In this document: one piece after another, positions 7,541 through 35,649 of the stretch | How the letters are laid out: each line of letters starts with the position of its first letter | Position numbering within the stretch: the first letter of the stretch is position 1 | NCBI GenBank assembly: GCA_036504445.1 | Contig: DASXVE010000018.1 | Location: 1-52,173, forward strand | Length of the DNA: 52,173 bases | Reading direction: 5' to 3' | Origin: Candidatus Aquicultor sp. | GTDB taxonomy: Bacteria; Actinomycetota; Aquicultoria; Aquicultorales; Aquicultoraceae | Position numbers and translations under genes: made by a program | Notes under the pieces: generated by a model | Told to the model about the DNA's origin: nothing | Database searches by the model: none | Seen by the model: only the letters and a program-made list of their open reading frames with translations

Positions 7541-8530
7541 CTACTCATTGATACTTATCGATGCTGATGTCTGAGCGATAATGCGCGTCGATAACCACTC
7601 AACAGCATCTGCTATAGGAATATTAAGGGTAGCTCCTGCGGCGTTACGATGCCCGCCGCCGCTCTTCTCACGCGCAATCGCACCGACGTCGATTGAACCT
7701 TTGGAGCGAAGGCTGACTCGCAAACCCGCGCCAGGCACTTCTTTAAAAATAGCGGCGACGTTTGACTCTTTTGCCATCCGCAGGTAATCAATGAAGTTTT
7801 CGGTGTCGCCCATATCCGCACCGGTTTCTTTGAGATCGCCGTTCAGCGTGTACGAGTAGATAAGTTTACTCTCAGCGATATACTTGGCGCGATCTAAAAC
7901 TCTTGCCAGTAGTTTCAGCGTAGAAAACGAAAGATTTTCGTAAATCTTATGGAAGATATTGTTCGGGATGACGCCGAATTCGACAAGCTCGGTCGCGATA
8001 CGAAGCGTTTGTGCGGTTGTATTTTGATACTGGAATCTGCCGGTATCCGTGACAATTCCGGCATAAAGCAGCGTAGCCACGTCGGAGTCGATATCCGCAT
8101 TCATAAAACGTAATAGCTGGTAGACTATCTCGGCCGTTGCGGATGCGTAGAAGTCTAAAATATTTATAGTACCGAAGTTCGAATTATCAACATGGTGGTC
8201 GATATTGATAATTGATTTAAACCCGGGAAGAGAACTCTCCATCATGCCCAGACGGCGTTCGTTTGCGCAGTCCAGCGTGATAAGCAGATCGCCTTCAGTG
8301 CATTGCCGGCAATCAACTACGGTATCAATGCCTGGCATCCACTGGTACTGCGGCGGGATTCTGATCTCTTCGCCCCAGGTAGAGCACACGTTCTTACCGG
8401 TTTGTTTAAGGCACGTAGCCATGGCTAACAGGCTCCCGAATGCATCGCCGTCGGGCTGAACGTGGGCTGCCAGGACTATGGATTCAGTTGCATTGATTAA
8501 TAGCGCGGCTTCCGCAAATGGTTTATTCAT
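7541..8530 (-). CDS. nrnA: DHH/DHHA1 family bifunctional oligoribonuclease/pAp phosphatase
   Basis: A 329-residue DHH-superfamily phosphoesterase. The N-terminal DHH domain shows the metal-binding HVQPDGDAFGS, the LDCANERR segment and the signature NIDHHVDN. The C-terminal DHHA1 domain ends with the substrate-binding GGGHRNAAGATL. NrnA-type enzymes degrade 2-5 nt RNA (nanoRNA) and dephosphorylate pAp. Its start overlaps the rbfA stop by 8 bases, so translation is coupled. Position between rbfA and truB is the conserved one for this family. Confidence 0.93.
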   Translation of the reverse strand: MNKPFAEAALLINATESIVLAAHVQPDGDAFGSLLAMATCLKQTGKNVCSTWGEEIRIPPQYQWMPGIDTVVDCRQCTEGDLLITLDCANERRLGMMESSLPGFKSIINIDHHVDNSNFGTINILDFYASATAEIVYQLLRFMNADIDSDVATLLYAGIVTDTGRFQYQNTTAQTLRIATELVEFGVIPNNIFHKIYENLSFSTLKLLARVLDRAKYIAESKLIYSYTLNGDLKETGADMGDTENFIDYLRMAKESNVAAIFKEVPGAGLRVSLRSKGSIDVGAIAREKSGGGHRNAAGATLNIPIADAVEWLSTRIIAQTSASISINE

Positions 8531-8912
8531 TATTTCCCTCGTTGGTATTATTTTGTAGTTTTCCCTCGTTTTTGTGCAATTTTCTTATTACCTTATCGAT
8601 GCGCATGCCCGCTTCGATAGAAGGGTCAATTTCAAATTTCAGGTCGGGAAAATATTTAATTCTAATTCTATGAGCGAGCTCTTTCTTGAGGAATCCGCTT
8701 GAGCTTTGCAACCCTTTGATCGTTTCGCTTCTTTTCTTGTTGTTTCCAAGCACGCTTACATACACGGTGGCATGCCGGAAGTCGGGCGTAACCTCGACCC
8801 CCGTGACCGTTACAAGGCCAATTCTCGGGTCTTTGACCTCGCGCTGGATTATTTCGCTTAATTCTTCTTTGATGAGTTCGCCCACTCGATGAGTTCGCGC
8901 GGTCTCAGTCAT
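8523..8912 (-). CDS. rbfA: 30S ribosome-binding factor A
   Basis: A 129-residue RbfA, a KH-fold factor that binds the immature 16S 5' region. Motifs include RVGELIKEELSEIIQ, VKDPRIGLVTVTGVEVTPD and the YVSVLG strand. The frame is open further upstream to 8981, but the family begins at MTETARTHRV and a GGGGAGA site lies just before that ATG, so 8912 is preferred. It overlaps nrnA by 8 bases. Confidence 0.93.
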   Translation of the reverse strand: MTETARTHRVGELIKEELSEIIQREVKDPRIGLVTVTGVEVTPDFRHATVYVSVLGNNKKRSETIKGLQSSSGFLKKELAHRIRIKYFPDLKFEIDPSIEAGMRIDKVIRKLHKNEGKLQNNTNEGNNE

Positions 8913-8998
8913 ATCAGTCTCCCCGTTTATCAGTTTCCATGTAATAAAAAACCCAGGGCCAAACAAGCTCGCAAAAGCCATTAGCCCCGGATTTTCAT

Positions 8999-9292
8999 TT
9001 ATTTTTCAGGTGCGAATAACGTAAACTTTCTGTTATTCACTATTGCCTTATCCAGGCCTTCAATAAAACGATCCACATGATCGAGTAAGTGCTTTGTTTG
9101 CTCACCGGTCATTGACACGTGAGCGATACCTATAGTTGCCCGCTGCCACAGATCATGGTTATCAACCTCGGATATAGACACATTAAACTTGCTATCAACT
9201 TTGCCTATAATGCTTTTAACAACCTGTCGTTTATCTTTTAAAGAGTTGGCATTGGGCAGAAAAAGCTCTATTTCAAGTAGCCCTACTACCAT
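8999..9292 (-). CDS. ylxP: DUF503 (YlxP-like) protein
   Basis: A 97-residue DUF503 protein, the small ferredoxin-fold family (Bacillus YlxP) found between infB and rbfA. Recognisable segments are LLEIELFLPNANSLKDKRQVVKS, the KFNVSISEVDNHDLWQRA stretch and the GIAHVS strand. The start codon lies two bases after the infB stop. Its exact role is not established; conserved location suggests ribosome assembly or translation. Confidence 0.9.
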   Translation of the reverse strand: MVVGLLEIELFLPNANSLKDKRQVVKSIIGKVDSKFNVSISEVDNHDLWQRATIGIAHVSMTGEQTKHLLDHVDRFIEGLDKAIVNNRKFTLFAPEK

Positions 9293-9294
9293 AG

Positions 9295-11586
9295 CTATTC
9301 ACCTAACTGGCGCTCACGCTCAACCAGTTTATAGGTCTCTATGATGTCGCCTTCCTTTACGTCCTGGAAGTTCTCGAGGCCGATACCGCATTCGAAGCCT
9401 TCACGGACCATCTTAACATCGTCCTTGAACCTTCTAAGCGACACGATACCGCCATCATAGATAACCTGGCCATCGCGCACCAGGCGGGCGTGATCGTTGC
9501 GATCGATTTCCCCGTTTAAGACCATACAACCGGCGATAACGCCAAGCTTCGGCACCTTAAACGTTGCGCGCACCTCGGCGCGACCTGTCTCGATCTCATC
9601 GATTGCCGGCGCGAGTAATCCGGATAGCGCTGCCGTTATGTCCTCGACGGCCTTGTATATGATCCGGTATGTCCGGATATCAACGTGCTCTTTCTCGGCC
9701 ATCGCAATTGAATTCGTATCAGGGCGAACGTTGAACCCTATAACAATCGCATTAGACGCCGCAGCTAGCATTATGTCTGTCTCTGATATACCACCGACAC
9801 CCGTGTGAATAACTTGTATCTGTACCTCGCTGGTATTGAGCTTGTATAGCGCGTCCTTCAATGCCTCAACCGACCCTTGGGTATCCGCCTTGATAACCAG
9901 GTTAAGGTCTTTAATTTCGCCTTCCTGTATTCGCGTAAAGATATCCTCGAGGGTGACGCGGCGCTGCTTCTCTTCTTTGATCAGCCTGCGCTTCAGCGCA
10001 CGTTCTTCCGCGATGCGGCGGGCGGCCTTCTCGTCTTCGACGACCTTAAGCTCTTCACCTGCTTGCGGCAGTGACGATAAACCGATTAGCTCTACCGGTT
10101 GTGCCGGTGTCGCGTCTTTTACAGGGTGACCTTTATCATCCGTCATTGCTCTGATCTTACCGTAAGCCGTACCGGCTATGACGGCGTCGCCAACGCGCAG
10201 CGTCCCTTTATTAACCAGGACGGTTGCTACCGGGCCGCGTCCACGATCGAGTTTCGCCTCGATGCAAATACCGCGAGCCTGTGTTTGAGCGTTGGCTTTA
10301 AGCTCTTGCACTTCGGCAACGAGCAGTATCATATCGAGCAATTCGTTGAGGTTGATCTGCTGCTTTGCCGATACGTCGACAAAGATGGTCTCGCCTCCCC
10401 AATCCTCAGGAATAAGTTCGTAGCGCGTTAGTTCCTGGCGGACTTTGGTCGGGTCTGCACCCGGTTTATCGATCTTATTCACGGCGACAATAATAGGTAC
10501 GCCGGCCGCTTTGGAGTGGTTGATAGCCTCAACCGTCTGCGGCATGACACCGTCATCAGCAGCAACGACCAATACGACAATATCGGTAACGTTTGCACCG
10601 CGCGCACGCATGGCGGTAAACGCCTCGTGACCCGGGGTATCGATAAATGTAATCTTTTTGTTATCATGGATTACCTGGTATGCACCTATATGCTGCGTAA
10701 TGCCGCCTGCCTCACCCGAAGTGACGTCGGTTTTCCTGATCGCATCAAGAAGCGATGTCTTACCGTGGTCGACGTGACCCATAACGGTAACAACAGGAGG
10801 CCTCGGTGTCAGGGTATCGAGATCCTCTTCGACCTCTTCCTCTTCGTCACTTATTTCTTCAGGATTCACGATATTAACTTTATAACCGAGCTCTTCAGCG
10901 ATAACTTCGATCGCTTCTTGGCTCAGTGATTGGTTAATTGTTACGAGCTCTCCGAGCTTCAACAACATTTTGATTAAGTCGTTCGGCTCCTTGCCGATGA
11001 GCACCGCAAATTCCTTAACCGTAGCGGCTTGCGGTACGTTAAGTATTTTCACAGGTGCGGCAGCTGGTGTTTCTTCAACAACAACAGCCGTTTCCTCGTC
11101 GGTTCTTGGCGGTTGAGCCGACTGTCTCGATTGCTGATCGGCCGGTTTTGGCTGCTGTTTGGCCTGCTCGCCGCGTTGCTCTTGCTGTGGTTGCGTTGTT
11201 GTTGCAGCTTGCTCACCAGGTTGTTTTACCTGGCCGACAGGCGCTTTGCCTGCTGTTTTGCCTTCACTCTGAGCTACCGGCTTTGTTCCAGCCGCCGGTT
11301 GTTTAATCGCAGCAGGTTTCGCCTCAGTTGCAGACGGTTTTACTGCTTTAGGTTTCTCTGCTTTGCTGGCAGTCGTTTCTTGTACTACTGGATCCTTCAC
11401 TTTTGGTGCGCGTGGTGACGAACTGGCACTTTTTGCAGTCTCAGTTTGGGCACCGTCGAGTTTTGCTATCGTCTCTGCATCTACAGTGGACGAGTGACTC
11501 TTGACTTCGATGCCTTGCTTTTTGAGCTTATCCATCAGTTCTGCGCTGGAAATTCCCATTTGTTTCGCCAGCTCATAAACTCTCAT
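9295..11586 (-). CDS. infB: Translation initiation factor IF-2
   Basis: A 763-residue IF-2 GTPase that brings initiator tRNA to the 30S subunit. An IF2_N helix bundle occupies residues 1-45. A low-complexity A/K/P/Q-rich linker spans about 50-180, followed by a second IF2_N-like segment at about 190-235. The G domain has [17 protein letters not shown] and NKIDKP. Domains II-IV follow, with the [13 protein letters not shown] and [12 protein letters not shown] stretches. The linker is A/K/P/Q-rich and is much shorter than that of high-GC actinomycetes. The ATG follows an AAGGTGG site and lies 12 bases past rnpM. Confidence 0.97.
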
Positions 11587-18652: not shown

Positions 18653-19237
18653 TTACATTTTAGCGGTTTTACGTGCACGAGAGATACCGGTTACCAGGTT
18701 AAACGCTGGAACTTCTTCCATATAAACATCATATTCGTAGCCGATCTTTTCCTGGGCTTGCCGGTCTTCCTCACTCGATGCCGCGAAAAACGCAGCGCTC
18801 GCAATTATCCCAAGCATTATAATAACGGCATTTGCCATGAGCAGAGCGATGCCCAGCGAGGCCAAGATTCCTCCCAAGTGTATCGGGTGGCGAATAACCC
18901 CATACACTCCCTGCGTCATAAAGAGCTGCGTGCTTCCCCAAAGCGAGACTAAGCTCGTCATTTTACGCTTAGATACAAAGGCGCCGATGAGCAGCGCCAA
19001 AGAAACCGCGAGCAGTACAAGGCCGATGGATTCCAAGGTAATGTTAAGGTTTTTATGCATCCTGAGCCGTAAGAACTGCCCGGCGAAGTATGCAACGACG
19101 AAGATTTGTGCGGAAAGCACCGCGACCCCCATGGCGATCAGCGCTTCCGAATAGAGTTTATCGATAATCGATTTCACAATCAGGTATGCGATATAAAACG
19201 AAAAGATTGCGATGATGGCAATGGCGGTAGTATCCAT
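18653..19237 (-). CDS. Isoprenylcysteine/phospholipid methyltransferase-like membrane protein
   Basis: A 194-residue integral membrane protein with about five hydrophobic segments. Near residue 115 it has GVYGVIRHPIHLGGIL, then a membrane segment and a conserved glutamate-rich loop (SSEEDRQAQEKIGYEYDVYMEEVPAF). This is the pattern of the PEMT/ICMT family, where RHPxYxG and the following EE bind SAM; here the tyrosine is histidine. The methyl acceptor is unknown. It stands alone between the nicotinamidase and DUF1540 genes on the same strand. Confidence 0.72.
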   Translation of the reverse strand: MDTTAIAIIAIFSFYIAYLIVKSIIDKLYSEALIAMGVAVLSAQIFVVAYFAGQFLRLRMHKNLNITLESIGLVLLAVSLALLIGAFVSKRKMTSLVSLWGSTQLFMTQGVYGVIRHPIHLGGILASLGIALLMANAVIIMLGIIASAAFFAASSEEDRQAQEKIGYEYDVYMEEVPAFNLVTGISRARKTAKM

Positions 19238-19930: not shown

Positions 19931-22141
19931 TTAAGCCGAGATAGATAGCAATTCAAACTCGTCTTCAGTGATTTCCTCGTCGATGGTAGCTAAATCGCTT
20001 TGCACTTGTTTACCGCTGAAAACTTCTATGAACTTGGCGGTGAGCTTCGCATCGAACTGCGAGCCGGCACACCGCTCAATTTCTGCTAGCGCTTCTTCTA
20101 CGGTTAGACCTTTCCTGTACGGCCTGTCTGATGTCATTGCATCGAACGTATCGGCCAGGGCAAGAATTCTGGCTTCGAACGGAATATTTTCACCTTTCAA
20201 CCCACTTGGATAGCCTTTGCCATCCCAGCGCTCGTGATGAGAATTTACCATCGGTATGATCTCTTTTAGTCGAGTTGACTCTAATATCTGAGCACTTAAC
20301 CCAGGATGATTCTTAATGATCTCCATTTCTTCGTCGGTAAGCCTGCCGGGTTTGTTAAGGATCTGGTCGGGAACACCGATTTTTCCGATGTCATGGAGCA
20401 TACCGGCTATCTCGATTCGACTCACAACTTCAGGATCGAGATCGATATACCTTGCCAGTTTTACTGCAAAAGCGCTTACTCGTTTCGAGTGCTGTCTCGT
20501 ATACGGATCTCGCGCATCGACCGCTCGCGCTAGGCTTCGAATCATATCGATGAGCGCCGCGTTCTCAGCTCGGCTGGCACGTTCATCTGCACTGAGTGCT
20601 TCTACTACGTTGGCATCATATAGTAAGGCTTGGTTTTTACCGGTTATTTTGCCCCAGTACAAGGTGCCATCCGCCGTATGCAACAGCTCATCTTTATCTT
20701 TCGCGAGTGTCGGGTACGCGCTTACGCCGACGGTCACGCTGATATCCGCATCCGGGAATTCTTCTTCGAGGCGCAGGCCGATAGCTGCTTTTGTTCCTTC
20801 GGCTATCTTTAGTGCTTTTTCTGCATTCGTTCTCGGTAGAATTATCGCAAATTCATCACCGCTAAGCCTGCATGCCTCATCGGCTTCACGAAGTTTCGAC
20901 AAGATAGCCTTACCGATTGCGGCAAGAACTTTATCGCCAAATATGTGCCCGTACATATTATTAACAGTTGCAAAGTTATCGATATCCACCATTACTAACG
21001 ATAAGTCTCTCTTTGCTTTTTGGGCTTTAAGCATTGTTTTATCAAGCGCTTCTTGGAAATATCTGTGATTATTAAGTCCTGTGGTGTTATCGCGGAGCGC
21101 TTTTGCCTGCAACGCTGCATTATCCGAGAGGAGCAAATGATTCCTGTATACTAAGAGCATTAAAGTTATCGCTGAAATCATACCAAGCACAGGGACCTCG
21201 CCCGGTCTGCCAACGTAGGAATTATACACCCAGACCGCCAGGACAATGACAACTGTCATCATTGGGATAAAAAGCGTCCGCCAAGTACTGTAAATACGTA
21301 TTCCGATTTCCGGAACGAATCCGCTTAGTTTTATTTTTGAGCGATCTATAGTTCCTAGAAGGACACCGCTAACTTCATCAATAGCAGACAAAGCGATAAA
21401 GAAAGCCATCATAATAAACGGTAGGAACGTAAACGGCTCTTTTTCAAGCCCGTTCGTATAGTATACGATATCACCGACTAGCGCCCAGACAAATGCGCTA
21501 ATAAAGAGAACAAGCCAACCCTCAATTTTGGTATCGCGAAGCTTGTATGACGCAGATAGCAGCGATATTAGAACGATACAATCCGTTAGCGGATAAGTGG
21601 CAATAAAAAATATTCGTTGAATCAAGCTCATCTCATCCGAGTACCAAGCTGGCGCAATAACAAATTTATAAGCGACAAGAAGCAGCGCAAAACCGGTCAT
21701 AAACACACCGATAAGGAATTGCTTCTTCTCCATATCAAACGGTGGGTGTATTCGACCCAAGCTCACCATTATTCCAAGTATTAATGGCGCATAAGCTATA
21801 GAAAATATATCGGCGAGGGATGGGGATGGAACATTAGTAACGCCCAAGCGAAACACGTAACTTGCATACGTAGCCTCGCCCGCAAACCATAACAGCATGC
21901 TTATCGACACTAAACGCCAGAGTCTTTTGTATGCTTTGCTATGCTTAACGGCCCAGGAAGAGCCAACAAAAGCATAAAGAACTGATAGAACAACAGGCAA
22001 CCTCAATACAGCATCGTTAACCCTGTTGCCTGTCTGCAAACTAAACATAAGAACCAGATATGCGAGGATAAGCGTTGTGGGTATAGCGATTACAACACGC
22101 CGGAACGTCTCCCCATTATTTTCTGCAAATTCTCTTAACAT
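19931..22141 (-). CDS. Membrane-bound GGDEF and HD-GYP domain protein (c-di-GMP turnover)
   Basis: A protein of about 736 residues with roughly nine membrane segments in the first 300 residues. A GGDEF domain follows at about 340-500, then an HD-GYP phosphodiesterase domain at about 520-700. The cyclase signature reads SGDEF rather than GGDEF, a variant that may weaken activity. The HD-GYP part keeps HDIGKIG, the HHERWDGKGYP loop and DTFDAMTSDRPYR, so hydrolysis of c-di-GMP is likely intact. The N-terminal region looks like a membrane sensor for an unknown cue. I chose the ATG at 22141 because AGGAG lies six bases upstream; the frame is open to 22180. It is divergent from the LuxI-like gene. 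Confidence 0.88.
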   Translation of the reverse strand: MLREFAENNGETFRRVVIAIPTTLILAYLVLMFSLQTGNRVNDAVLRLPVVLSVLYAFVGSSWAVKHSKAYKRLWRLVSISMLLWFAGEATYASYVFRLGVTNVPSPSLADIFSIAYAPLILGIMVSLGRIHPPFDMEKKQFLIGVFMTGFALLLVAYKFVIAPAWYSDEMSLIQRIFFIATYPLTDCIVLISLLSASYKLRDTKIEGWLVLFISAFVWALVGDIVYYTNGLEKEPFTFLPFIMMAFFIALSAIDEVSGVLLGTIDRSKIKLSGFVPEIGIRIYSTWRTLFIPMMTVVIVLAVWVYNSYVGRPGEVPVLGMISAITLMLLVYRNHLLLSDNAALQAKALRDNTTGLNNHRYFQEALDKTMLKAQKAKRDLSLVMVDIDNFATVNNMYGHIFGDKVLAAIGKAILSKLREADEACRLSGDEFAIILPRTNAEKALKIAEGTKAAIGLRLEEEFPDADISVTVGVSAYPTLAKDKDELLHTADGTLYWGKITGKNQALLYDANVVEALSADERASRAENAALIDMIRSLARAVDARDPYTRQHSKRVSAFAVKLARYIDLDPEVVSRIEIAGMLHDIGKIGVPDQILNKPGRLTDEEMEIIKNHPGLSAQILESTRLKEIIPMVNSHHERWDGKGYPSGLKGENIPFEARILALADTFDAMTSDRPYRKGLTVEEALAEIERCAGSQFDAKLTAKFIEVFSGKQVQSDLATIDEEITEDEFELLSISA

Positions 22142-22282
22142 AATAGCTCCTGATATGCCATTGGCAAAATTACGATACATAAGGTATCGGCACGGGTGTT
22201 GTATACTTTAGCGCTTATTGCTAATGATTGCCGAGGTTAAAGCGGTAAGCAATATTGTTTTAAGGAGCAATCATCCGCAAAG

Positions 22283-22312
22283 TTGGAAAAATGTGGAATA
22301 CTATGGTATATT
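22283..22312 (+). promoter_or_regulatory. Promoter of the LuxI/FeeM-like gene
   Basis: TTGGAA and TATATT are separated by 18 bases, about 48 bases before the ATG. The -10 region overlaps an imperfect palindrome (AATACTAT GGTATATT, 22297-22312). The 9-mer GAATACTAT within it also occurs near the HTH genes further along. Confidence 0.5.
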
Positions 22313-22359
22313 ACCGTTTGTAAAGCATACAAGCAGAGAACTGAATTTGGACTAAGGTA

Positions 22360-23136
22360 ATGGCATTAGTAAGACCGCAAAGTTTTTCAAACTTGAGAGC
22401 GTTTATTAAGAATCAATTCCCCACGTTTACAGAGCGTGGGGTTATCGGCAAGCTGCTCGACCCCGACAATCCGACTGAACTGGATTTGCTTCGCCGATTT
22501 AGATACAAGTATTGGGTAGAGCGATTTAAGTACGTCGATGAGACGGAAACCGACGGTGAGTATGAATATGACAAATATGATGAGCACTCAACACATTTCG
22601 GAGTGTTTGATCAAGATACGGAAGATATTATCGGTTATGCCAGGATCATTAGTCCCGGTAAACATGGCTTACAGGTAGATAACGTCTTTGAAGATCTGGT
22701 GCACCCCCGTGCGCCGGATACGGACCGCATGCCAAGAAGTGCAGAATCATCAAGGCTCATCGTAGCTCCCGAAGCGGGAGGCAAGCGCCGTGATGTCGCG
22801 CGCATGCTTTATAAGCTGCAGTACCAATTCTTTAAGCGTTACGGATTCAAATACTGGTACACGACGACATATATTCCCTTTTTAAGAGCTCTGAGGGCGC
22901 AGAAATATAAATTCGACATTATTGGCCCTGGTCAGGATTATCAAGGCCATATGTGTTTCCCCACGTTAATGGTCATGGATGAATTTGACGCCTATTTGTC
23001 CGAAAAGGATCCCGAGCACTATTATTGGCTAAATGATGGCATTGATGAAATCAAAGATATAAACAGCATTTTTTCCGATATTCCGGAAGATCTTCGGCTA
23101 TTTAACCCCGAGTATATAGTTAAGCGGAAAAAATAA
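22360..23136 (+). CDS. LuxI/FeeM-like N-acyl synthase (candidate autoinducer synthase)
   Basis: A 258-residue soluble protein with the autoinducer-synthase variant of the GNAT fold. The family's invariant charged residues line up: Arg48 in FRYKYWVERF, Asp71 and Asp74 in YDKYDEHSTHFGVFD, the IIGYARI strand at 90-96, and Glu129/Arg132 in AESSRLIV. LuxI-type and FeeM-type enzymes transfer an acyl chain from acyl-ACP or acyl-CoA to SAM or to an amino acid; the sequence does not show which. The C-terminal 60 residues are family-specific. The stop lies one base from the end of the convergent ThiF-like gene. The ribosome site is weak (AAGG two bases before ATG). An exosortase-associated acyltransferase is the main alternative, but no exosortase is seen here. 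Confidence 0.7.
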   Translation: MALVRPQSFSNLRAFIKNQFPTFTERGVIGKLLDPDNPTELDLLRRFRYKYWVERFKYVDETETDGEYEYDKYDEHSTHFGVFDQDTEDIIGYARIISPGKHGLQVDNVFEDLVHPRAPDTDRMPRSAESSRLIVAPEAGGKRRDVARMLYKLQYQFFKRYGFKYWYTTTYIPFLRALRAQKYKFDIIGPGQDYQGHMCFPTLMVMDEFDAYLSEKDPEHYYWLNDGIDEIKDINSIFSDIPEDLRLFNPEYIVKRKK

Positions 23137-23137
23137 C

Positions 23138-23914
23138 CTAGAACATATTATAGAAATCGACCGCCAAGTATTTGGGAGCCACGGGGATTCGTTTATTATC
23201 GATAATAAACATGATAACACCCGCAACGAGAAGCGATGCTGCTGCTAAACATCCAAGGCTCGATGTAGGAATATGCATCTCCCTGCGAACCACTTTTTCA
23301 ATGATATTCATCTCTACGTATTTGGGAACCTCAGGACAGAACCTATCAAGCGGTATGATATAGTCCTCAACTTCTTCAGGAGATGCGTTTGCCGGGAGGC
23401 CTATATAATCCTCGAACTTGATACCGTTTGCGTTGAATGCGAACATGGTTGCGCCAAAGCCTATCGCGAAAGCAATAAGTACGGTCTTACCTGCCTCTCT
23501 CGAGGCTTTATTCAGCATAACCGATAGATCTGGCCGATTGTATTCTATGGCATCGATTACAATATCCGCACCGTTGAGGAATTCGCCGACATTTTGCTCG
23601 GAGATGCCTTCTTCCCAGACTTTTAGATTCAGATGCGGGTTAATCTTCAGTAATTCAGACTCAAACATTAGAGCCTTATTCTGCCCTATGGTCTGCTGAT
23701 TTGCCAGAAGCTGCCTATTTGCATTGCCGATTTCAAAAAGTTCGGGGTCAGCGATATGTAATGTGCCTATGCCTAACCGGACGAGCCGCTCAGCTGTAAT
23801 TCCGCCAACACCGCCAACACCCGCTATAGCAACCTTCAAATCTCGCAACCGTTCTTGGTGTTCGGGGATAATAAGCCCTCTATTGCGCTGAACCATCTCA
23901 TTGTAATTGTGCAT
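23138..23914 (-). CDS. ThiF/MoeB/HesA-family E1-like adenylyltransferase
   Basis: A 258-residue E1-like protein. The nucleotide loop GVGGVGG (about residues 32-38), Asp56, the N..NRQ arginine finger (Arg67), Lys80 and the Asp121 metal position in DIVIDAIE are all present, so adenylation of a C-terminal carboxylate is plausible. The CxxC zinc knuckles of MoeB/ThiF are absent. A hydrophobic helix (SLLVAGVIMFII) lies near the C-terminus. No ThiS- or MoaD-like small protein is nearby, so it probably activates something else. It is convergent with the LuxI/FeeM-like gene, with one base between their ends, suggesting functional pairing or mutual antisense effects. Confidence 0.82.
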   Translation of the reverse strand: MHNYNEMVQRNRGLIIPEHQERLRDLKVAIAGVGGVGGITAERLVRLGIGTLHIADPELFEIGNANRQLLANQQTIGQNKALMFESELLKINPHLNLKVWEEGISEQNVGEFLNGADIVIDAIEYNRPDLSVMLNKASREAGKTVLIAFAIGFGATMFAFNANGIKFEDYIGLPANASPEEVEDYIIPLDRFCPEVPKYVEMNIIEKVVRREMHIPTSSLGCLAAASLLVAGVIMFIIDNKRIPVAPKYLAVDFYNMF

Positions 23915-24087
23915 ATTCTCTCCTTCGCTAAGCGATTCTGTTAATACGTTACATGATTTAGCGATATCGGTTCAAGAAATATGTGAAAATTCCTCAGTTT
24001 GCATCAACGACTGCTGTGCGATGGCTTGGGCTATAAGGTATATGTCTCTGTCGAAATATGTATAATATCTAGTGGAGGAATTTACCA

Positions 24088-24792
24088 ATGAAATTGACGA
24101 GCAGTTTCTGGCAGAACTATTTTAAAGCATACGATGTCTTGAACATGGTTTATCCATATCAAGTCCACCTCGACACGATCGCAGAATATTGCGGATTGCA
24201 GAAAGACGGGCGTGTGCTTGATGCTGGCTGCGGAACCGGCAATTTAAGTTGCAAGTTAGGACGGCATTGTTCTAATGTAATAGGGATCGATAATGTTGAG
24301 GCTGCATTAGTTATCTGCCGAAACAAGGTCCCGGATGCAGACTTCATCTTACACGACCTAAACGAGCCTCTTCCATTTACTGATAATTACGTTGATGCAA
24401 TCGTCTGCAATTTTATTATTCATATATTATCCCCCGGCAGACGGCCTTTTTTGATCCAAGAATTCTACAGAATCCTAAAACCGGGCGGCAAAATCGTTAT
24501 AAGTAACCCCGGTAAGGATTTTAGCTCGCTGGCTGTTTATAAAGCTCATCTGCGACACGAGCGCGAACGATTCGGGCGGATAATAACCCTGGTAAGAGCT
24601 GCAAGGCTCGTATTGCCAACTTTGCGAATGTTTTATTACAGCTCGAAAATTCAGGATAATGCTAAGGGCGGAGACCTCTCCTTCTTCATACCTGGCGAAC
24701 AACGGCAATTACTTGAGAGAGCCGGTTTCAATACTTCTCCAGAGCAGCTTTCTTATGCTGGCCAAGGTTTGCTTATTGTAGGCAGAAAATAA
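24088..24792 (+). CDS. Class I SAM-dependent methyltransferase (Methyltransf_11 type)
   Basis: A 234-residue methyltransferase. Motif I is VLDAGCGTG at about residues 39-47, followed by VIGIDNVEAAL, then a DxxxHDLNEPLPF strand and AIVCNFIIHIL. The post-motif helix has EFYRILKPGGKIVIS. The C-terminal half carries the usual acceptor-binding cap. A GGAGG site is well placed before the ATG and TATAAT lies upstream. It is divergent from the ThiF-like gene and convergent (four bases) with the LuxR-type pair, so it sits inside the signalling locus. The substrate is unknown; modification of the acyl product is one idea. Confidence 0.82.
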   Translation: MKLTSSFWQNYFKAYDVLNMVYPYQVHLDTIAEYCGLQKDGRVLDAGCGTGNLSCKLGRHCSNVIGIDNVEAALVICRNKVPDADFILHDLNEPLPFTDNYVDAIVCNFIIHILSPGRRPFLIQEFYRILKPGGKIVISNPGKDFSSLAVYKAHLRHERERFGRIITLVRAARLVLPTLRMFYYSSKIQDNAKGGDLSFFIPGEQRQLLERAGFNTSPEQLSYAGQGLLIVGRK

Positions 24793-24796
24793 TCCT

Positions 24797-25594
24797 CTAT
24801 GATTCAACCGGTGTTTCAACCTGCATGCTGTGGAAATGTTTTATGACATCATCCCTTGATTTTATACCGAGCTTCTTATAGATGCGGTAGAGGTGGTTCT
24901 TGACGGTAGCCTCCGAGATAAAGAGATCGCTGGCAATCTGGGCGTTGGTTCTTCCCTGTGCTAAGCAAGAGAGTACCTGCTGTTCTCGCGCTGAAAGTTG
25001 TGTTTGATCCAGGGGCGCAGCGGCTATAATCTGTTGTGCTGCTTCGAGCTTTTTATCGACCTGAGTTATGTCGTTCTTAGCATTATCGATTTGTTGAATT
25101 ATATGGGCAGGATAGCCAAAGAAGAATGCTATTAAGAAAAACCCAATATAGCTTGAAGCAAGAAGATCGAACGTTTGGTCATTAATGATTTCAGACATCA
25201 GATGCCCATTTGGCACTATATAAGCGGTATATAAAATACTGACATACAGAGCCGAGAGCAGCCCATATCGCAGACCTAGCGCCAATGAGCTCGTTAGGAT
25301 ACAGGATAACACATATAAGTAATATGGGCTCGTCCAGTGGGCATTAGTAAGCCAAACTAAGGCGGTCGCCATAGTAAGGTCAATAAACACCAACCATGGT
25401 GTTCGCTGAACGGCCTTATTTATTTGGCGCCAATAATAAGTGAGAAGCGAACAGTAAATGAATGCGGCTGCTAATACAAGAAGTGAACCTTTGTACGTAT
25501 TGAAAAGGTACAAAAGCGCAGCTGTAAGTAGCGCAAGCCACCGTATAATTAACGCGTTAAAAATACCTCGTTGCCCTCTAGCCAACTTCACCAT
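24797..25594 (-). CDS. Membrane-anchored LuxR-type transcriptional regulator, copy A1
   Basis: A 265-residue one-component regulator. About six membrane segments (roughly 13-33, 36-55, 67-85, 91-108, 110-128, 145-165) are followed by a coiled-coil-like linker (170-195) and a LuxR/GerE HTH at about 200-257, with LSAREQQVLSCLAQG and EATVKNHLYRIYKKLGI. There is no receiver, kinase or autoinducer-binding domain. The membrane part carries a TSPYYLYVLS motif similar to the sensor region of some actinobacterial histidine kinases. It overlaps A2 by 17 bases and is translated second. It is clearly paralogous to the gene at 34089-34886. A ligand in or near the membrane is inferred. Confidence 0.82.
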   Translation of the reverse strand: MVKLARGQRGIFNALIIRWLALLTAALLYLFNTYKGSLLVLAAAFIYCSLLTYYWRQINKAVQRTPWLVFIDLTMATALVWLTNAHWTSPYYLYVLSCILTSSLALGLRYGLLSALYVSILYTAYIVPNGHLMSEIINDQTFDLLASSYIGFFLIAFFFGYPAHIIQQIDNAKNDITQVDKKLEAAQQIIAAAPLDQTQLSAREQQVLSCLAQGRTNAQIASDLFISEATVKNHLYRIYKKLGIKSRDDVIKHFHSMQVETPVES

Positions 25595-26366
25595 TTAACC
25601 TCATCGCCGTGCTGAGCGCCTCTTGTTTTGTTGATACCTGTAGCTTCTCATACACTCTCTTAACATAGGTCTTGATCGTGTTGTTAGTAACATCAAGTTC
25701 AGATGCAATTTGCTCGTAGGTTAGTCCGTCGAATAATAGCATTAAGACTTGAGACTCACGCTGTGATAAGTTGAATTTTTGCAGTGATGCTTCCAGAAGT
25801 TTCCTTGTTTCAATCCAATCGGCTTGAACATTTGCCTTAGTTTTGTTGACCGCTTCTAAGTCTGAAGTCAGTTCAGAGAGGTATGCCATACCATATGCGG
25901 TAACGTAGTATGTGAAAATATATATCATTATGGACTGACCGCGTATTTCGAATTGCAAAGGGCTATACCCTAGCATCCAATCGGCTATAGTAATCAGGAT
26001 GTTTTGGATACTTCCAATAATAAAAGCGCCAGAGTACCGAAAAAGATAACCACCGATGAGCAGCGGGCTAAATGTATAAAGAGAGTAAGGGTTTTTATAA
26101 GCGCCCGAACTTAGTTCAAGTACCATCATCAAGGCTACATCAACGAGCATTAGTAATGGATATTTGAGCAGCAGTCTCACTACTTGTGTCCTGAACGCAA
26201 TAATTAGCACGGTATATACCATGACTGCTGCAAACAGCGGCAGTGACAGATAGCCCAATCCAGTTAAGCCCAGTATTGCCGCATAAACGAGGGTTACAAC
26301 ACGATACATCAGCAGAACAAGGATAATTGTTTGTTCTGCAACTAGTTTATTACGGACTTCATGCAT
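25578..26366 (-). CDS. Membrane-anchored LuxR-type transcriptional regulator, copy A2
   Basis: A 262-residue protein with the same architecture as its partner. About six membrane segments lie in residues 12-165, including the YKNPYSLYTFSPLL motif at about 90-103. A linker helix and a C-terminal LuxR/GerE HTH follow at about 199-256 (LSQRESQVLMLLFDG, NTIKTYVKRVYEKLQV). The ATG has CGGAG eight bases upstream. It is the first gene of the pair. It is paralogous to the gene at 34864-35649 (shared YKxPYxLYxFSP and NTIKTYxKRxYxKLxVSxKQEALS). Two different membrane regulators encoded in overlap suggest a heterodimer. Confidence 0.82.
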   Translation of the reverse strand: MHEVRNKLVAEQTIILVLLMYRVVTLVYAAILGLTGLGYLSLPLFAAVMVYTVLIIAFRTQVVRLLLKYPLLMLVDVALMMVLELSSGAYKNPYSLYTFSPLLIGGYLFRYSGAFIIGSIQNILITIADWMLGYSPLQFEIRGQSIMIYIFTYYVTAYGMAYLSELTSDLEAVNKTKANVQADWIETRKLLEASLQKFNLSQRESQVLMLLFDGLTYEQIASELDVTNNTIKTYVKRVYEKLQVSTKQEALSTAMRLNGEVG

Positions 26367-26775: not shown

Positions 26776-28091
26776 GTCCCACTTTTTCTGTAAATTCGTT
26801 CCCCAGCTAGTGCCCTTACACGGGCACTAGCTTTACCTCCAGTTTTGCCTCGGTCTTCGTCTTGGTTCTCACCGACATATCCAAGTACTTCCGACTTGAG
26901 AGCCATTCGTCAGTTTGCTCTGCCGCAAGCGCAGTAATCAATCTTACTGCCGCCGTCTCATTCGGAAAGATCCGCACAACCTTGGTCCTGCGCTTGATCT
27001 CCTGGTTGAAGCGCTCAAGCATATTGGTAGTTCTCATGCGTTTTCTATGTTTCTCCGGTAGAGAGAAGCACGCCAGAATATCGTCAGCCGCCTCTTCAAG
27101 CATTGTTGTTACGGCCGGATAGCGTTTCTCATAACGCTGCATTATCTCGCTTAAGACTTCGCGTGCCCGCTTACCGTCTGGGCTCTCAAAGACCATGCGC
27201 ATCTCGGCTCTTAAGCCTGCTCTGTCACTTCTTGCAACTTTAGCGCATAAAGTGACACTGACACCGCTGCCAAATAGCGCCGACGAATTGTTTCTCAGCC
27301 GCTTTGACGAGACCTTTGTGTTCGTTGCTTACCACAAACTCAACGCCGGTTAAGCCTCGTTCAGAGAGTGAGCGGAAGAGTTCACGCCAACTGGTCTCGC
27401 TCTCGGCGTTGGCGATCTCGACAGCTAGAATCTTTCGAAACCCGTCATCGTTTATACCGGCGACGATTAAAACGCTTTGACTTACCACCCCGCGGGGTGT
27501 GCGTACCTTCTCGTATCTGGCATCGATTAGAAGATGCGGGTACGCATCTAATGGGCGCATACGAAATGCAAGCAAATCTTGATCAAGCTGGCCGCAAAGG
27601 CGCGACACCTGGCTTTTTGATACCGCACTCCCGCAGAGTTCTTCGGCAATCTTGGTCACGTTTCGAGTCGAGACCCCTTGCACATACATCTCAATAATTG
27701 AGAGCACCAATGCTTTCTCACTTCGCTGGTATCGCTCGAAGAGCTTTGTTGAGAAGTTGCCCTCTCGATCCTGGGGCACGGCCAAGGTGATATCGCCGAC
27801 TCTCGTATGCAGCGTTCTTGGTTTGTAGCCGTTGCGCTCGTCACAGCGCTCATATGGATCGGCAGCCAAGAAATCTGTTATCTCTTCTTCCAGATGCGAT
27901 TGTAAAAACCTTTCTATGAGCGAGCGCAAGAAATCCTTGTCATTTATCAATGCGTCTTGCAAAATACCGCCACTACTCATACGCTTTTCTTGAGCCATCA
28001 AAATTCCTCCTTAGGTTGTTTGGTCACTTCCTAATTTTGAGGAACGATGGCTTGCTTTTCAACTTAGCCCTTTTTACAGAAGTTTAGGGGC
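26776..28091 (-). mobile_element. IS256-family insertion sequence, inactivated
   Basis: An element of about 1.3 kb with a single transposase gene between imperfect terminal inverted repeats. The left end begins GTCCCACTTTTTCTGTAAA; the right end, read inward, begins GCCCCTAAACTTCTGTAAA. Size and transposase match the IS256 family. I found no matching 8-9 bp target duplication at the two ends, which suggests an old insertion or later rearrangement. Confidence 0.78.
26816..28001 (-). pseudogene. IS256-family (Mutator-type) transposase, frameshifted
   Basis: Two frames together make one transposase. Residues 1-253 run from 28001 to 27240 (LLIDARYEKVR with the first catalytic Asp; ends CQCHFMR then TAA). 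The C-terminal part resumes at about 27235 as VARSDRAGLRAEMRM and runs to 26816. Between them the gene keeps 4 bases where the family has about 15, so an 11-base deletion is the simplest explanation. The second catalytic Asp, normally in VSDxHKGL, is Asn here (VSNEHKGL). Both changes argue that the protein is dead. Confidence 0.8.
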
Positions 28092-34088: not shown

Positions 34089-34886
34089 CTAGCTGCCGTT
34101 TCGTGGGGATTGGCTGTGGTAGTAAATTACTGCCTCTTCCCGGGAAGAAATCCCGAGTTTTTTGTAGATTCGGTGGAGGTGGCTTTTGACGGTATGTTCG
34201 GAGATGAAAAGGTCTTGTGATATTTGCTGATTTGATTTGCCCTTGCTTATATGTGTAAGTATTTCAAATTCTCGGTTCGATAAAACCGGCGGATTTGTGA
34301 TTGTCGATATAAATGCTTCGGTATCTTGAATTTCTTGTCTTAAGGATGCCGTGTCCTGGCGCAACTTATTGATTCTCTGCACGATGCATGCCGGATACCC
34401 CGATATCATGGCTATCGTCATAATGCCCATATAGCTCGTTATTAAGACATCGAAATCTTGATTCTTTATCAGCTCACCAAGTGCGGCTTTATCAAACAGC
34501 AACCCGACGTTGAGGAGCGCAATAAAGTAAAGAGTCGAACCTACCACATATCGCATGTTTTTTAGAAAGAACGAACTCAAGAATATGCTTGCAAGTGAAT
34601 ATAAGAAAAAAGGGCTTGAGAAAAACCCGCATGAAAACCAAATAAAAGACGCTGTTACTGTCAGATCGATGAGAAACAGATATCGTCGTGTTTCTATGGC
34701 ATTTGAGATTCTTCGCCACAAGACAAGCAGCACCAGATTGTAAATGAAAGCAACGATAAGTAATGTAAGCGAAGCCCTGCTTATCTTGATGGATAAAAGA
34801 AATACAACGTCGAGAAGCGTCAGTAGACGAACTATTAGTAAATGAAAGAGGCTGACTCGCAGATTAATCAATGGCGTATTCCTCAT
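34089..34886 (-). CDS. Membrane-anchored LuxR-type transcriptional regulator, copy B1
   Basis: A 265-residue paralogue of the gene at 24797-25594, with the same length and layout. About six membrane segments occupy residues 15-165, with the FFSSPFFLYSLASI motif. A coiled linker (SLRQEIQDTEAFI) and a C-terminal LuxR/GerE HTH follow (LSNREFEILTHISKG, ISEHTVKSHLHRIYKKLGISSREEAV). There is no receiver or kinase domain. It overlaps the upstream partner by 23 bases. The HTH is better conserved between the copies than the membrane part, consistent with different signals but related target sites. Confidence 0.82.
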   Translation of the reverse strand: MRNTPLINLRVSLFHLLIVRLLTLLDVVFLLSIKISRASLTLLIVAFIYNLVLLVLWRRISNAIETRRYLFLIDLTVTASFIWFSCGFFSSPFFLYSLASIFLSSFFLKNMRYVVGSTLYFIALLNVGLLFDKAALGELIKNQDFDVLITSYMGIMTIAMISGYPACIVQRINKLRQDTASLRQEIQDTEAFISTITNPPVLSNREFEILTHISKGKSNQQISQDLFISEHTVKSHLHRIYKKLGISSREEAVIYYHSQSPRNGS

Positions 34887-35649
34887 TCATAACGAGCGAA
34901 AGCGCTTCCTGTTTCGATGAAACGCCGAGCTTTGCATATATCCGTTTAAAATAAGTTTTGATAGTGTTCTGCGATACGCCAAGCGCTTTACATATCTCGT
35001 CGATATTTCTACCCTCAGCTGCGTGAATAAGCACTTCGATCTCCCGGTTTGAGAGATTTCTGCCGGCAAGAGCTTTCTTGAGTCGTTTCCTTGCCTCCTC
35101 AAGTTCGCAGCTGGCTGCAGTTTTATCACGGTCAGCAAGGTCGAGCTTCTTAAGTAAAGAGCCGACATAGGCCATGATAAATGCGACGAGGAAAAAGAAC
35201 GGCATATATGTAGCGACATGTTCTCCGAAATTTTCGAGGAGTGACATGTCATAATATCCCAGGCGGTAACCAACAAGCCTAAGAACGCTTTCAAGTGAAG
35301 CGATCCAGAGTGCACTAAAATAGCCGCCAATAAAGGAGCCCATCATTATCGGGCTAAAGATGTATAGAAAATATGGTGACTTATAAACCCCTGAGTTAAC
35401 CCAAAGGAAAAGCGATATCAGGATGTCGATCACGATGAGAAACTGCCATTTTCGGAGCACGCCGATAACTGAATCCCAATATTTAAAAAGGATGGTGTTA
35501 TAGATGAGGGCAAAAATATAAGAAGGAATGGCGAGGTAATGTAGACCTACTATGCCCAAGAAACCTGCATACAACAAGATAAATATCCTGTACCATAAAA
35601 GCATTCGCAAAACTGACTGTGCAGGTTGTGTATCCAGCCACGATTTCAT
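34864..35649 (-). CDS. Membrane-anchored LuxR-type transcriptional regulator, copy B2
   Basis: A 261-residue paralogue of the gene at 25578-26366. About six membrane segments include the YKSPYFLYIFSPIMMG motif at about residues 90-105. A charged coiled linker (AASCELEEARKRLKKAL) and a LuxR/GerE HTH follow (LSNREIEVLIHAAEG, NTIKTYFKRIYAKLGVSSKQEALS). First gene of the B pair; AGTGGAGA lies before the ATG. The pair repeats the order, overlap and lengths of the A pair, showing duplication of a two-gene unit. Confidence 0.82.
   Translation of the reverse strand: MKSWLDTQPAQSVLRMLLWYRIFILLYAGFLGIVGLHYLAIPSYIFALIYNTILFKYWDSVIGVLRKWQFLIVIDILISLFLWVNSGVYKSPYFLYIFSPIMMGSFIGGYFSALWIASLESVLRLVGYRLGYYDMSLLENFGEHVATYMPFFFLVAFIMAYVGSLLKKLDLADRDKTAASCELEEARKRLKKALAGRNLSNREIEVLIHAAEGRNIDEICKALGVSQNTIKTYFKRIYAKLGVSSKQEALSLVMNEEYAID

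Follow-up and report, generated by a model that had tools for sequence, protein, structure and literature searches.

An N-acyl amino acid synthase-like gene and its membrane GGDEF-HD-GYP neighbour in Candidatus Aquicultor

Does a synthase resembling LuxI, found in a bacterium of the genus Candidatus Aquicultor, belong to a quorum-sensing circuit, or is it part of a biosynthetic locus with a different regulatory partner? The question is raised by a stretch of 52,173 nt from Candidatus Aquicultor sp. (GCA_036504445.1, contig DASXVE010000018.1, positions 1–52,173, forward strand; here called the window). A sequence-only reading had singled out five genes within 22283–26366, namely an acyl synthase, a ThiF-like adenylating enzyme, a methyltransferase and two LuxR-type regulators, and had joined the synthase and the regulators into a candidate quorum circuit. 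ORF calls and Pfam/NCBI profile searches place all five genes, with their domains, where that reading had them. Missed was a sixth: a divergent gene for a membrane GGDEF and HD-GYP protein (19931–22180), which lies just beyond the interval.

The synthase and its adjoining enzymes

The synthase gene (22360–23136, + strand, 258 aa; NAS) probably encodes an N-acyl amino acid synthase-like GNAT, a description that includes a predicted substrate and product. FeeM-type and LuxI enzymes have a common fold, and it was to this fold that the protein had been assigned. AlphaFold2, given seven family homologues, produced a model (pLDDT 77, pTM 0.78) whose leading PDB matches in Foldseek are TofI, RpaI, MesI, BjaI, FeeM and LasI (E 1e-8 to 1e-6), and AHL synthases and FeeM likewise lead when the family profile is compared to PDB sequences: the predicted structure thus falls within the LuxI/FeeM fold. 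Profile searches agree in part. The protein matches PF13444 (Acetyltransf_5) above the cut-off (4.3e-10; 40.6 bits vs 22.4), but falls below the curated cut-off for the LuxI family of AHL synthases (PF00765; 17.9 bits vs 24) and has no match to the FeeM family (PF21926) at E 0.01, although five of the seven family homologues do match the latter (best 5.2e-19). The NCBI model TraI is also matched under its cut-off. No relative came up when contigs were scanned with the NAS protein, and a plasmid tblastn gave no match.

In the alignment of the seven family homologues R48, D71, D74, R95 and E129 are invariant. Glu129 – the candidate catalytic residue – lies within an E-x-S-R motif that aligns with LuxI enzymes; for one NAS enzyme, Nas354, the catalytic Glu has been established by mutation (PMC4897644). 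The LuxI hallmark set claimed for the protein (Arg48, Asp71, Asp74, Glu129, Arg132) thus holds for its first four members, whereas Arg132 is variable, being replaced by Ser in both g4 homologues.

The ThiF-like gene (23138–23914, - strand, 258 aa) is convergent with NAS across a 1-bp gap. Its product matches PF00899 (3.5e-34) and PRK08223 (2.2e-54), the latter match being under the PRK08223 cut-off; PDB entries 9egb and 9egc are the closest full-length solved matches, for which a literature search found no paper. Alignments show that the Gly-rich loop, N66-R67-Q68 and K80 are retained. Glu124, however, stands at the position of the TcdA Asp – the usual E1 Asp, in the adenylation motif – and because of this replacement activity is not assured. 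A MoeB/ThiF-type role in sulfur-carrier or ubiquitin-like chemistry was considered and rejected: the protein has only two cysteines (Cys193, Cys222) and no CxxC zinc motifs, hence no paired CxxC, and no carrier gene was noticed nearby.

Among the 11 genomes of the family, NAS is present in six, and ThiF of the NAS type is confined to these. It adjoins NAS in four of the six: in the window, in G004 (where the genes overlap by 4 bp), in G006 and in G008 (where ThiF is cut by the contig end). The synthase does, then, recur with the ThiF-like gene in relatives.

The third enzyme is a SAM-dependent methyltransferase of the UbiE/BioC-like class I (24088–24792, + strand, 234 aa; Methyltransf_25, 3.7e-20). 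Methyltransferases approximately 30% identical to it adjoin NAS in G001 and in G004 (contig C25). It is convergent with the first LuxR gene across a 4-bp gap; given convergence here and between NAS and ThiF, a point that the sequence-only reading also missed, neither pair is an operon. A nitroreductase-type flavin-dependent desaturase (PF00881) was not found among the window ORFs scanned, which cover most of those in the window.

The ThiF-like neighbour points to a NAS product with a free carboxylate. NAS would join an amino acid to the acyl group of a thioester. The resulting acyl amino acid would be adenylated at its free carboxylate by the ThiF-like enzyme, with ring closure to an oxazolone (azlactone) as the most likely outcome, and the cyclised product may be modified further by the methyltransferase. 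Since ThiF is present and no desaturase was seen, the predicted product is an N-acyl amino acid or a saturated cyclised form thereof, possibly methylated.

A recurring membrane GGDEF-HD-GYP neighbour

Divergent from NAS lies the gene for the membrane GGDEF-HD-GYP protein (19931–22180, - strand, 749 aa). The intergenic region common to both genes (22181–22359) contains consensus matches, each of them weak: imperfect inverted repeats (22205–22222/22266–22283) and a promoter-like match on the + strand upstream of NAS (22283–22312). An Rfam search of the window gave no match. On its other side the gene adjoins one for an ICMT/PEMT-like membrane methyltransferase (18653–19237), a homologue of which occupies the same place in G004.

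The protein matches GGDEF (7.9e-36) and HD_5 (2.9e-46) in Pfam, with an SGDEF signature, HDIGK at 596 and GYP at 656. Having the HDxGK, GYP and GG(D/E)EF-type motifs, it is by sequence a candidate active c-di-GMP enzyme. The N-terminal ~345 aa comprise 9–10 predicted transmembrane helices and match no Pfam family above cut-off. In a model of the GGDEF-HD-GYP protein (pLDDT 68), Foldseek finds nothing significant for the membrane domain (best E 0.1). For the same domain VIA-align returns 7-TM bundles at Z of about 10–12, values that according to the tool can be helical-bundle background, and for this reason we make no receptor claim for the domain.

The membrane domain is found in nine of the 11 family genomes (one to three copies per genome). 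In five of the six that bear NAS (G000, G001, G004, G005, G006) it is encoded no more than about three genes from NAS, and in G004 two GGDEF-HD-GYP copies flank the NAS–ThiF pair; in the sixth (G008) the NAS and membrane GGDEF-HD-GYP genes both lie near contig ends. The link is not strict, since the membrane GGDEF domain is also present in three genomes in which no NAS was found (G003, G007, G010). The recurring regulatory neighbour of NAS is nevertheless this protein, and not LuxR.

Within the class, NAS occurs in this family only; across a 396-genome sample of the phylum, NAS matches were found in 21 genomes. Fourteen more distant NAS neighbourhoods were compared, many of them resting on weak matches and on ORF calls that are crude at high GC. 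A FeeM-family protein of G375 has GGDEF-EAL genes to either side of it, and a NAS in G329 has a GGDEF-EAL gene on one side; the remaining 12 show no GGDEF/HD match nearby, and ThiF of the type described here was found in none of the 14. The locus in G375 (L060, 4535–12414) places its FeeM-family protein between two large PAS-GGDEF-EAL proteins. A scan based on ThiF only identified a Planctomycetota locus in which a FeeM-family NAS lies about 6 kb from ThiF. GGDEF matches number 7–23 per genome (eight genomes counted), from which the chance of immediate adjacency is, roughly, about 1% per genome. Two distant NAS genes of 14 adjoining GGDEF-EAL genes are thus suggestive of a c-di-GMP link, not proof of one.

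On balance we lean towards a locus for the synthesis of a lipid derived from an N-acyl amino acid, with that synthesis tied to c-di-GMP signalling through the membrane GGDEF-HD-GYP neighbour. The tie could run in either direction. The multi-pass membrane domain may sense the lipid, or the effect of the lipid on the membrane, and so set c-di-GMP turnover; alternatively, c-di-GMP may control lipid synthesis. A more specific version – in which NAS, ThiF and the methyltransferase supply an oxazolone-type N-acyl amino acid that is sensed by the GGDEF-HD-GYP membrane domain, making the latter a one-protein receptor that converts a diffusible lipid into a change in c-di-GMP – strikes us as rather doubtful.

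Another account is that of an ordinary secondary-metabolite or membrane-lipid cluster (for a surfactant, an antimicrobial or an ornithine-lipid-like compound) with a c-di-GMP gene beside it by inherited gene order only. We regard this as a tenable alternative, if a less probable one. Products of NAS enzymes are known as surfactants and antimicrobials (PMC4897644, PMC12479983), and relatives yield weak OlsB matches. Gene order around the locus is moreover common to genera g1, g2, g5 and g6; because the window, G004, G005 and G001 have the same surrounding gene order, they represent one inherited locus and not independent events. Against this account, NAS and GGDEF-HD-GYP occur together in two chromosomal settings, one on the trmD/pncA side and a second, in g4, on the side of aspS (named from sequence); in G375 and G329 the partners of NAS are of another kind, GGDEF-EAL proteins; and published systems offer c-di-GMP parallels, described below.

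The tandem LuxR genes

In a quorum circuit the neighbouring pair of LuxR regulators would detect the acyl product within the membrane, and one would expect to find them where the synthase is found. Both regulators are real: the genes (24797–25594, 265 aa, and 25578–26366, 262 aa; both - strand) overlap by 17 bp, their products match GerE (4.6e-21 and 1.1e-15), and each has four hydrophobic segments before the HTH, in keeping with the multi-pass membrane domain attributed to them. A Pfam search of the two proteins detected no autoinducer-binding domain.

The distribution of the pair (24797–26366), which we judge to lie outside the conserved locus, is independent of NAS. The genome has four such paralogous tandem pairs (the others at 34089–35649 of the window, L027 1226–2843 and L029 4377–5919), each membrane-anchored and each consisting of two distinct subtypes encoded by overlapping genes. 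Such pairs are present in 10 of the 11 family genomes, five of which lack NAS; G004 has two NAS genes and no LuxR pair, and in the other NAS-bearing relatives the pairs lie on different contigs from NAS. No clear palindrome common to the promoters was found. In each of G003, G006, G008 and G010 a histidine-kinase-like protein begins with a related membrane domain (the kinase being read by eye), which suggests that the domain is a general sensor module.

With the pair convergent to the methyltransferase gene, proximity – adjacency in one genome – is the sole evidence for a quorum circuit, which we consider improbable. Likeness to LuxI/LuxR quorum sensing extends to the fold of the synthase, several hallmark residues and an HTH of the LuxR type; it ends with a synthase under the LuxI cut-off and with LuxR genes whose conservation does not follow that of the synthase and whose products have no autoinducer-binding domain. 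The neighbourhood survey therefore upholds the sequence-only reading as regards the ThiF-like gene and goes against it as regards the membrane LuxR genes, which are probably an unrelated neighbour of the locus.

Several features near LuxR-type genes and related domains may be recorded. Next to the pair in the window is a Mutator-family (IS256-like) transposase in two frames (26816–28001), probably a decayed insertion. About 2 kb from the pair on L029, repeated ORF fragments (VHPRTRGEL/GSSPHPRG; 7555–9656) resemble a translated CRISPR-type array. In g4, proteins of ~560–580 aa (L113 340–2028, L111 1447–3144) combine the related membrane domain with GAF and a histidine-kinase-like region, and are adjoined by a response-regulator-like ORF; these assignments were read by eye and not from profile matches.

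That the synthase is a PEP-CTERM/exosortase-associated acyltransferase acting in protein sorting is hardly credible and, for this genome, largely refuted: TIGR03694 is the best NCBIfam match of all seven NAS homologues (best 8.9e-39) and links between NAS and exosortase have been published for Gram-negatives (Craig et al. 2011, as cited in PMC4897644), but the window NAS scores 64.4 bits against a TIGR03694 cut-off of 111.95, and no exosortase match was found here or in 10 of the 11 family genomes.

Comparison with known clusters

Biosynthetic loci of this kind are known, and the one in the window differs in that no desaturase was found near it among the ORFs scanned. In Mycobacterium, amino acids that have been acylated by TyzA or TrzA are closed to oxazolones, with ATP, by TyzB and TrzS, which are homologues of ThiF (PMC10404671, PMC12856293). 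The window has the same central arrangement as these tyzACB/trzAS acyl-oxazolone clusters of Mycobacterium tuberculosis, in that the gene for a NAS-fold acyltransferase adjoins one for a ThiF-like adenylating enzyme (in those clusters the cyclase); in contrast to them it has a methyltransferase, no flavin-dependent desaturase was found among its scanned ORFs, and Glu takes the place of the conserved adenylation-motif Asp (TcdA, not TrzS, being the aligned reference). The trzAS genes of Mycobacterium tuberculosis also adjoin genes of c-di-GMP turnover, rv1354c and rv1357c (PMC12856293), where the locus described here has the membrane GGDEF-HD-GYP gene.

A second likeness is to the stieleriacine, kyonggic acid and thalassotalic acid clusters, which pair NAS with a ThiF-family gene. 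The stieleriacine cluster contains NAS, ThiF, a nitroreductase and methyltransferase, one of the Stieleria methyltransferases being UbiE-like; no nitroreductase was found among the window ORFs scanned, while the portion of the source available reports no c-di-GMP gene for clusters of the stieleriacine type (PMC12479983). In Nas343/Nas354, which have the conserved catalytic Glu, NAS is coupled to c-di-GMP by fusion to a PilZ c-di-GMP-binding domain (PMC4897644): there the c-di-GMP partner is an effector domain within the same protein, whereas in the window it is an enzyme with a gene of its own beside NAS.

Two separate published hints point the same way as the c-di-GMP neighbour: the position of trzAS next to c-di-GMP genes, and the NAS–PilZ fusion. 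A cluster without an O2-dependent desaturase would suggest that a saturated cyclised product is possible as an end point. A conserved, membrane-bound c-di-GMP enzyme beside the synthase provides a concrete and testable partner, and hints at the role that such compounds may have.
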